From: Halobaculum magnesiiphilum
Lineage (GTDB): Archaea > Halobacteriota > Halobacteria > Halobacteriales > Haloferacaceae
Direction: 5' to 3'
Length of the DNA: 64,000 nucleotides
Assembly: GCF_019823105.1 (NCBI RefSeq)
Contig: NZ_CP081958.1
Coordinates: 1,240,001-1,304,000, forward strand
Part shown: piece after piece, positions 41,270-60,936 of the stretch
Position numbering within the stretch: the first letter of the stretch is position 1
Layout of the letters: every line of letters begins with the position of its first letter
Notes under the pieces: model-generated
What the model was told of the DNA's origin: nothing
What the model saw: only the letters and a program-made list of their open reading frames with translations
The model's database searches: none
Program-made: the position numbers and the translations under genes

Positions 41270-41317
41270 GTTCTACTCGGGGGCATTCTGGAAGGAGACC
41301 GGGCACGATAGATACAG
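41270..41317. repeat. ~50-bp conserved block, copy 1
   Basis: Shares GTTCTACTYG, then TCTGGAAGGAG, then CGATARATACAG, in the same order and near-identical spacing, with 59367-59416. Both copies lie close to a hairpin cluster and an AT-richer gene. Confidence 0.75.
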
Positions 41318-41373
41318 CAGACAAGCCCCCCGCGAGCGAGCGCGGCGAGCGAGCGGGCCGACGACCGAGCGGA

Positions 41374-41568
41374 AGGCGGCTCCGCCGCCTGAAGTCGTTC
41401 GAAAGGCGCGAAGCGCCTTTCGTGATGCTGCCGGAACGCTCCGCGTTCCGGCCGCCGACCAGACGCCGCCGGCGTCTGGTAATGACGAGAGACGGCTTCG
41501 CCGTCTCTCGAACCACGAGGAGGAGTGCGTTTGCTCCGGCGTTTGCCGAGGACCGGCGAAGCCGGAGC
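41374..41568. repeat. modular hairpin cluster A
   Basis: A run of perfect inverted repeats with 3-nt loops: 41374-41390 (7-bp arms), 41400-41422 (10-bp arms, loop GAA), 41430-41452 (10, TCC), 41458-41480 (10, GCC), 41486-41510 (11, TTC), then an imperfect set to about 41568 including CCGGC-GAA-GCCGG. Linkers TGATGCT, AATGA and AACCACG recur in clusters B or C. It begins about 90 bp after the cofC stop when read on the minus strand. Confidence 0.92.
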
Positions 41569-59139: not shown

Positions 59140-59169
59140 ACACGACCTCTTTTCGCCTCGGGTTTCCTC

Positions 59170-59312
59170 GGCCGCCTCCGGCGGCCTGCGGGAACCGCTC
59201 GGCGAAAACCCGTCGATGCTGCAGGAACGCGAAGCGTTCCTGCTGCTAACCAGAATCGCTCCGCGATTCTGGTAATGCCAAAAGGCCGGACCCTCCCTTC
59301 GGTCGGGTCCGG
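59170..59312. repeat. modular hairpin cluster B
   Basis: Perfect inverted repeats with 3-nt loops at 59170-59186 (7-bp arms, loop TCC), 59221-59243 (10-bp arms, GAA) and 59249-59273 (11-bp arms, TCC), then 59286-59312 (8-bp arms, 11-nt loop). The order GATGCT - hairpin with GGAACGC arms - hairpin with ACCAGA arms - AATG is shared with cluster A. Confidence 0.92.
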
Positions 59313-59366
59313 TGAACCGCTCGCTCCGCTCGCGGATGCTACTCCCGCAGTCCCGACCTACGATTT

Positions 59367-59416
59367 GTTCTACTTGCGATCGCTCTGGAAGGAGGAGCGG
59401 TCAGCGATAAATACAG
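59367..59416. repeat. ~50-bp conserved block, copy 2
   Basis: Second copy of the block at 41270-41317: GTTCTACTTG, TCTGGAAGGAG and CGATAAATACAG at nearly the same spacing, upstream of the PLP-enzyme gene. Confidence 0.75.
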
Positions 59417-59527
59417 AGAATGTATTCAGCAATCAGTAACTACAGGGCATTTATCGACTGTCGCGTAGTGAGAGATGTGTTGCCACACACCGAAACATTC
59501 CTCTATACCTCTTGACTAGAAGAGTCC

Positions 59528-60607
59528 ATGAGTACTCCCGAACTTGTCTGTTCTTCGTGTGGCCGGACATACACCAATCAGTGGCGGTGTGAGTGTGGCG
59601 GCGTCCTTGACTTCACTCACGAACCGCTTCCGGCATCCGACCGGCCAGACCCAAGTCAATTCGATACCCGAGACGGACTCTGGTCGTTCGATATGTTCAT
59701 TCCAGTTGAGAAAAGGTCATCTCTCGGCGAAGGAATGACACCGCTGGTTTCGTCATCAATATGGGATGCTCAGTTTAAACTCGAATACGTCTCGCCAACG
59801 GGGAGCTTCAAGGATAGGGGTGCAACCACAACTATCAGCCATGCCATTGCGTGTGGCGCAGAACGAGTCGTCGAAGATTCATCAGGGAACGGCGGGGCTG
59901 CCATCGCAACGTACGCGGCTCGCGCTGGCCTCGACGCGGAGATTTACGTTCCGGCCTCCGTAAGAGACGGGAAGCTCCGCGGGATCGAACGGGTCGGTGC
60001 GACACCCGTTCGAATCGAAGGCGGACGCCAAGCCGCGACCGATGCATGCATCGAGGCCGTCGAGTCGGGCGACGGCTGGTACGCGAGTCACTCGTGGAGT
60101 CCGGCGTTCTCCGCTGGGACGGCGACGTTCGCGTACGAACTCGCGCTCCAACGCGACTGGAACGTCCCTGACGCGATCGTGATGCCCCTCGGCCACGGAA
60201 CGCTGTTCCTGGGCGCGTACCGTGGATTCAAGGCGTTGTCCGAAGCAGGGTGGATCGAGACGGTGCCACGTCTGCTCGGCGCGCAAGCCGCAGGATATGC
60301 CCCGATTGCGAGCGAACTCAACGCAGTCCCCGAGAGCGAGAACGATGTCGCAGATGGCGTCCATATACGGGAGCCAACACGAAAACAACAACTCTTGAAT
60401 GCGATTGCTGAGACCGATGGTGACGCGATTGCGATTACGGAAGATGCGGTGCAAACGGAGCTAGACCGGCTCCACTCACACGGGTTCTACGTGGAACCGA
60501 CCTCAGCGATCGCGCCTGCGGCACTTGCGGCGTATCGAGAACGCGGGACGCTTGGGCCAGATGCAGACGTGGTGATGCCACTTACGGGACATGGATTAAA
60601 GACGTAA
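59528..60607 (+). CDS. threonine synthase-like PLP enzyme
   Basis: A 359-residue fold-type II PLP enzyme. A short zinc ribbon (Cys8, 11, 21, 23) precedes the PLP lysine, Lys96 in TGSFKDRGATT; SSGNGGAAIATYAARAG is the phosphate-binding loop. It is shorter than the thrC product at 23121 and lacks its Gly-rich inserts. It may make threonine or use another substrate, such as a beta-replacement reaction. GC content is lower than in neighbouring genes and hairpin clusters lie on both sides, so it was probably acquired later. The ATG at 59528 is preceded by an AT-rich promoter. Confidence 0.88.
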   Translation: MSTPELVCSSCGRTYTNQWRCECGGVLDFTHEPLPASDRPDPSQFDTRDGLWSFDMFIPVEKRSSLGEGMTPLVSSSIWDAQFKLEYVSPTGSFKDRGATTTISHAIACGAERVVEDSSGNGGAAIATYAARAGLDAEIYVPASVRDGKLRGIERVGATPVRIEGGRQAATDACIEAVESGDGWYASHSWSPAFSAGTATFAYELALQRDWNVPDAIVMPLGHGTLFLGAYRGFKALSEAGWIETVPRLLGAQAAGYAPIASELNAVPESENDVADGVHIREPTRKQQLLNAIAETDGDAIAITEDAVQTELDRLHSHGFYVEPTSAIAPAALAAYRERGTLGPDADVVMPLTGHGLKT

Positions 60608-60936
60608 CCAGACGGGACGCTCGCCGATACGTTCGCAGCCCTTATTGAGCAGTTATTTCATCCAGGACTACCCGAAATAGAGTTCTGATAACATTCTCGC
60701 GAGACACAATTAGTTGGCCGCCTGCGGTTGCGGTTCGCACTAGCGATTGTTCCGCGAGCGAGGGCTGTCAGGCCCGAGCGAGCGGCTTTTTGGCATGAAC
60801 GGGTTTTGCGGGGGGTCTGGCCGCAGTCGTTCGAGAGGCGCGAAGCGCCTCTCGTGATGACGAGAGACGGCGGAGCCGTCTCTCGAACCACGGGCGGCGA
60901 AGCCGCCCGCGAGGACATGCCCCCCGCAAAAGAGGT
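60608..60936. other. 329-bp gene-free region with hairpin cluster C
   Basis: Between the PLP-enzyme gene and the phoU stop. It holds hairpin cluster C inside a 12-bp inverted repeat, which ends five bases before the phoU stop codon. The first 120 bp are AT-richer with no recognisable feature. Confidence 0.75.
60804..60931. repeat. modular hairpin cluster C with 12-bp flanking inverted repeat
   Basis: Outer arms TTTTGCGGGGGG (60804-60815) and CCCCCCGCAAAA (60920-60931) enclose three perfect hairpins: 60832-60854 (10-bp arms, loop GAA), 60861-60885 (11-bp arms, loop GGA) and 60891-60909 (8-bp arms, loop GAA). The first differs from its cluster A counterpart by a compensatory pair change; the second has identical arms to cluster A but another loop. 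Confidence 0.92.

Follow-up and report, generated by a model that had tools for sequence, protein, structure and literature searches.

Tandem hairpin clusters of Halobaculum magnesiiphilum as probable non-autonomous mobile elements of the haloarchaea

Three Hairpin Clusters in One Window

Three intergenic sites in a 64,000-nt stretch of the Halobaculum magnesiiphilum genome (contig NZ_CP081958.1, positions 1,240,001 to 1,304,000; hereafter the window, numbered from its first letter) carry clusters of short hairpins, and the question they raise is whether such clusters are structures maintained for their pairing or copies of something that moves. An earlier note on this DNA had described perfect stems of 10–11 bp closed by 3-nt loops, and all eight of these were recovered: perfect stems of at least 10 bp with a 3-nt loop occur exactly eight times in the 64 kb, all of them in the three clusters, versus 0.8 expected in first-order Markov sequences. 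The stems, each 10–11 bp long and without mismatch, lie at 41.4 kb (41400-41422, 41430-41452, 41458-41480, and 41486-41510), 59.2 kb (59221-59243 and 59249-59273), and 60.85 kb (60832-60854 and 60861-60885). DNA folding gave z-scores of −9.4 (41.4 kb), −9.7 (59.2 kb), and −6.2 (60.8 kb), and for each cluster 0 of 200 shuffles matched its stability.

The recurrence of the linkers TGATG, AATG, and AACCAC(G) was confirmed as well, and the compensatory differences reported between copies proved real, with CGAAAGGCGC versus CGAGAGGCGC for the stems at 41400 and 60832, and GCCGGAACGC versus GCAGGAACGC for those at 41430 and 59221. The clusters had also been called modular and shared, and modular they are, but they are not copies of one thing. 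Instead, the 60.83-kb cluster is one unit A, the 59.2-kb cluster is one unit B, and the 41.4-kb cluster is a B within the linker of an A, as laid out in the following features.

41394..41516, plus strand: composite A+B of 123 nt, unit B inserted in the TGATGA linker of unit A
41394..41399, plus strand: left unpaired motif of A, GTCGTT, its G being the left base of the target GC
41400..41422, plus strand: hairpin 1 of A, 10 bp, loop GAA, from the stem search
41423..41427, plus strand: TGATG, the B target, being the left piece of the interrupted A linker
41428..41484, plus strand: unit B, made of CT, hairpin 41430-41452, CGCCG, hairpin 41458-41480, and AATG
41486..41510, plus strand: hairpin 2 of A, 11 bp, loop TTC, from the stem search
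41511..41516, plus strand: right unpaired motif of A, AACCAC, its C being the right base of the target GC
59219..59277, plus strand: unit B, made of CT, hairpins 59221-59243 and 59249-59273 with linker TGCTA, and AATG
60826..60891, plus strand: unit A, made of GTCGTT, hairpin 60832-60854, TGATGA, hairpin 60861-60885, and AACCAC
60804..60815, plus strand: left arm, TTTTGCGGGGGG, of a perfect 12-bp outer palindrome that encloses the A at 60826..60891
60920..60931, plus strand: right arm of the same palindrome, CCCCCCGCAAAA
60792..60807, minus strand: unoccupied target framework of B, AAAACCCGTTCATGCC

A second copy of the composite, 95% identical, lies at G000:C1:563879-564070, and in the sister genome G007 a B fills the place that matches 60792..60807. 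The surrounding DNA (59140-60936), flanked by a CDC48-type ATPase gene and a PhoU gene in convergent orientation, is an intergenic hotspot: its cargo differs or is almost lacking in the other 10 genomes of the genus, and in G007 the PALP (threonine-synthase-like) cargo is inverted. A further motif, TTCTACT...TCTGGAAGGAG...CGATARATACAG, is common to 41272-41318 and 59369-59420, near both clusters, and recurs at the hotspot in relatives; possible identities are a promoter and the end of an island.

Anatomy and Distribution of Units A and B

Searches of the organism's own genome and of its relatives gave a consistent plan for each unit. Unit A, of 54–66 nt, consists of GTCGTT, a hairpin that opens with CGA and ends with TCG around a stem and 3-nt loop, the linker TGATGA, a second hairpin of the same design, and AACCAC, with stems that vary between copies. 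Its inverted terminal repeats are GTCGTTCGA and TCGAACCAC, with one mismatch. Among 80 A copies retrieved with the linker CGTGATGACG as sole anchor, the outer motifs were kept in 72 (GTCGTT) and 70 (AACCAC) despite differing flanks. Unit B follows (N)ATG and consists of CT, a hairpin, TGCTR, a second hairpin, and AATG, with copies ending in AATG, GATG, or ACTG. In Halorubrum coriense (L207 and L267), A occurs in a tandem duplication with a unit of 84 bp. A dispersed larger frame, GAAAGCCCC...variable stem...GGGGCCTTTCAGTCCCACC, is long-range paired, occurs across families (L036, L066, L083, and L097-L108), and often surrounds A in either orientation.

The earlier note had proposed a search for homologues, and the family extends genome-wide and order-wide, with many further sites. 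The A core was found in 110 of 146 Halobacteriales genomes, a count that includes a few chance matches in coding DNA, versus almost none for the reversed control, and a stricter pattern for the right half of A matched 35 of 53 Halobacteriales genomes versus none of 242 from the rest of the phylum. When 84,980 species were scanned, at least 120 stretches were obtained, and the 80 loci listed were all from haloarchaea, including Haloquadratum. Haloarchaeal plasmids also possess A, with 26 records covering at least 80% of the query, while A had no match in a phage collection.

Insertion of Unit A

Empty sites of A were sought by joining the two flanks of a copy with 0 to 6 unspecified bases and matching them against all retrieved stretches, the DNA compared being these selected stretches; the patterns used here and in the covariation analysis demand the hairpin foot bases and outer motifs. 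Gap-free empty counterparts with a pre-insertion length of 2 nt were found for 42 A copies, 36 of them reading GC; a length of 4 added a single case, and the remaining lengths (0, 1, 3, 5, and 6) added no case. Because many of these empty sites are homologous repeat frameworks rather than strict orthologues, single insertion events are not exactly countable from them. The 2-nt sites, mostly GC, indicate that the inserted stretch is TCGTT...AACCA, placed between G and C as G[TCGTT...AACCA]C, with no duplication of the target. That the clusters are precisely inserted mobile elements is what the earlier note had missed.

Individual loci illustrate the event. At the 60.8-kb site, a member of the same genus (L146; genome G006) is without A and reads CCCGCA, GC, GGGCGGCGAAGCCGCCCGC (CCCGCA GC GGGCGGC). 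Just four orthologous pairs were present among all retrieved loci, two of them identical. At 2673.6 kb, A is present in G000 and missing from its sister G007, where GC stands instead; at 978.6 kb, G007 is without a larger 113-bp segment that contains A in G000.

Copies of A also occur inside or beside TnpA or TnpB genes of several genomes, and some interrupt IS605-type transposase genes. Since the interrupted genes predate A, the direction is insertion and not loss. In four such insertions the net length was divisible by three in every case, with three keeping the frame open through the element and one gaining two stop codons. In L211 and L265, from different genomes, A is inserted at roughly the same spot of the TnpB zinc ribbon.

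Some copies lie at the apices of hairpins. At 7.8% of the unique A sites, compared with 0.4% after shuffling, a hairpin with a 3-nt loop and a stem of 5 bp or longer has a 3' arm that begins with the target GC, and flank complementarity of at least 8 bp was modestly enriched (14% versus 4%); this placement applies to part of the copies only. In one case, the IS605-type element L363, a four-hairpin insert containing A sits in the left-end palindrome, and most A copies lie outside such near-terminal palindromes. L363 also has, by eye, a 51-bp in-frame hairpin pair of another type inside its tnpA (1708-1760); the tnpA homologue in the organism's own genome (L139) has no such pair.

Insertion and Nesting of Unit B

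For B, gap-free empty sites were found at a pre-insertion length of 0 for 17 of 20 copies, and at lengths 1 to 5 the numbers were 2, 6, 1, 0, and 0. These empty sites include plain A copies, in the case of nested B, and L147 for the 59.2-kb copy, which lies directly after GATG (59215-59218) and whose empty site reads gtcgatg/ccaaaaggcc. The target is NATG, with insertion directly after it, and nested copies always split the A linker as TGATG/A. As read from these sequences, the AATG of B may be its own end, as in IS605-type elements, or its ATG may be a 3-nt target duplication; both fit. The sister genomes G000 and G007 differ in B at 1171 kb, and in the island that lies between the CDC48-type ATPase and PhoU genes, B is at one end in G000 and at the other end in G007.

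Candidate Transposases

Taken from sequence comparison, A and B are very likely mobile. The best-surviving alternative to elements in their own right is that both are terminal-only palindrome-associated elements (PATEs) of the IS200/IS605 family, i.e., fused end hairpins moved by the TnpA (Y1) of full-length elements. The hairpins near both ends, the absence of target duplication, and the position of B after the short motif NATG are all consistent with this, 52-bp terminal-only PATEs exist in Haloquadratum (PMC3119063), and 14 of 122 A copies lie inside TnpA/TnpB genes or within 1 kb of them, compared with 4.6% for randomly chosen positions. The possible ATG duplication of B would depart from the IS200/IS605 pattern. 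Moreover, the two Y1 elements of the organism's own genome have unrelated ends and were rejected as parents of A and B, no parent transposon with the ends of A was found, and the Y1 elements beside A (L363 and L364) show A inserted in or next to them and not as their ends. The target of A is a G/C dinucleotide, and presence of Y1 (PF01797) does not follow A across genomes: as read off presence tables without formal correlation, G025, G078, and G067 have 17, 10, and 6 A copies and zero Y1, while G014 has 10 Y1 and zero A. On balance, we regard the PATE origin as unlikely.

Stems, Loops, and Probable Template Switching

The covariation test that the earlier note had suggested gave values far above chance. 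Across 194 elements, pairing beyond the fixed foot was 97.8% and 98.2%, versus 60–61% after arm shuffling. The stems do not drift freely; they come from a small pool, and CGAGAGAGC, CGAAAGGCGC, CGAGACGCC, and CGAAAATC are each used in either hairpin. The loop triplets occur in both orientations (GAA 74 and TTC 65, GGA 37 and TCC 35, AAA 14 and TTT 21), with a reverse-complement symmetry statistic of 138 versus a null mean of 22 and maximum of 116; for complement and for reverse the statistic was 28 and 7. At 400.7 kb, where G000 and G007 have orthologous A+B clusters, the stems are identical and two of four loops are exactly inverted. Aligned sister sequence amounting to 390 kb and 598 hairpins contained no further exact loop inversion, so that direct evidence comes from two hairpins at one locus, with the triplet symmetry being broader.

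Template switching between inverted repeats is known to homogenize arms and invert spacers (PMC8794818, PMC8604942). Loop inversion with unchanged stems, together with triplet symmetry, points to such switching between the arms, and the hairpins have probably been shaped by it. This process accounts for the stems and loops of A and B and not for their insertion; it is a mutational process, whereas A and B are elements. As template switching yields paired changes by mutation alone, covariation by itself does not prove selection for RNA structure. The earlier note had concluded that selection or copying of structure was implied, and copying stands, while selection may not be needed given the loop inversions and triplet symmetry.

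These results bear on the reading that the hairpins function as RNA or DNA structures, such as terminators, mRNA stabilizers, small RNAs, or protein-binding sites, under selection for pairing. Strong covariation, fixed unpaired motifs, and a mainly intergenic location would be expected of such structures, yet loop inversion gives paired change without selection, and an Rfam scan of the 64-kb window returned nothing. The genes flanking A are convergent, tandem, or divergent as at random intergenic places, by a comparison that used crude gene calls, and for this reason a terminator role was rejected. A furthermore occurs in one and not the other of two sisters that are 97% identical, is found in transposase genes, and is nested in other repeats. 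We consider a maintained structure improbable. Also rejected was one large structured RNA, an idea prompted by the frame GAAAGCCCC...GGGGCTTTC that commonly surrounds A, since A takes either orientation within this frame and the majority of A copies lie elsewhere.

Weaker still, and most improbable, is the suggestion that nothing moves, with palindromes made in place by template switching, which can produce perfect stems (PMC8794818) and is in keeping with the loop inversions here, and motifs shared from one ancient repeat, since this is already contradicted by the 42 A copies whose gap-free empty site is exactly 2 nt long and leaves unexplained the identical two-hairpin unit at unrelated loci and the interrupted transposase genes.

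A Model for the Double-Hairpin Elements

The overall explanation that we favor, with good confidence, is that the clusters are non-autonomous mobile double-hairpin elements, i.e., two hairpins in tandem. An enzyme acting in trans would recognize GTCGTT, TGATGA, and AACCAC plus the two adjacent hairpins and, probably on single-stranded DNA, would join the unit into its target. The transposases of IS200/IS605 and of REP elements act on single-stranded DNA. Given fixed unpaired motifs, two hairpins, and no duplication, the simplest guess is an enzyme that recognizes folded single strands, and movement of A and B by single-strand transposition is plausible, if a little short of probable. Following insertion, template switching between the arms would keep the hairpins perfect and flip the loops, while recombination among copies would reshuffle the hairpins and swap stem cassettes, as the loop inversions and stem sharing suggest; B inserting into the A linker would generate nested clusters. 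There is no need for a host function to account for the pattern. More tentatively, these elements could represent an order-wide archaeal class that transposes by a chemistry of its own. Its unit would have three unpaired motifs and two interchangeable hairpins, would be inserted between G and C without duplication by a non-Y1 enzyme, and would be able to nest and to reshuffle its hairpins through loop inversion.

Comparison with Known Elements

The earlier note knew of no named haloarchaeal element like this, which is nearly right, except that the small mobile repeats (SMRs) of Haloquadratum constitute the closest named class (PMC3119063), as compared by description. SMR-A and SMR-B of Haloquadratum walsbyi are transposase-free, possess inverted ends, and generate no target duplication, with SMR-A being ~110 bp in length, its copies commonly >95% identical, and the three SMR families lacking sequence similarity (PMC3119063). 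SMRs insert into palindromes of IS605-type elements or PATEs, and their mobilization has been called enigmatic (PMC3119063). A shares with SMR-A its haloarchaeal host, lack of a transposase, inverted ends, and absence of target duplication. It differs in its length of 54–66 nt (~110 bp is approached only by the 123-nt composite A+B), in its variable stems and fixed unpaired motifs, and in its order-wide occurrence. As to targets, one A lies in an IS605 left-end palindrome and 14 of 122 copies are in or near tnpA/tnpB genes, with most located elsewhere.

REP and REPIN elements, with their GTAG and CGTC repeats, resemble A and B as dispersed, mainly intergenic, inverted hairpin pairs (PMC3733652, PMC3116915). 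However, A is without the GTAG/CGTC tag, having GTCGTT/GTGGTT instead, and it has few copies per genome and no link to a RAYT (Y1) transposase, whereas REP/REPIN elements have a dedicated one (PMC3733652). The haloarchaeal lineage is not among the phyla named in the survey of these elements (PMC3733652, PMC3116915). Finally, fungal mitochondria have double-hairpin elements and GC clusters that are likewise mobile, non-coding, and built from two tandem GC-rich hairpins; those of Allomyces are without flanking duplication, and the GC clusters of yeast merge (PMC2800124, PMC4478555). The fungal elements are mitochondrial, and those of yeast have AG or ACT repeats at their flanks. The likeness to A and B is one of form; sequence similarity would not be expected, and no descent is claimed.

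Significance

Elements of ~60 bases that lack a gene, occur across an order, and insert with single-base precision imply a recombination activity, and we found no description of such an activity for haloarchaea, much-used model organisms. The family is also a natural data set demonstrating that strong stem covariation can come from copying between hairpin arms, a caution for RNA-structure searches. In practical terms, annotation could mask A and B, and their presence or absence would be usable as strain markers.
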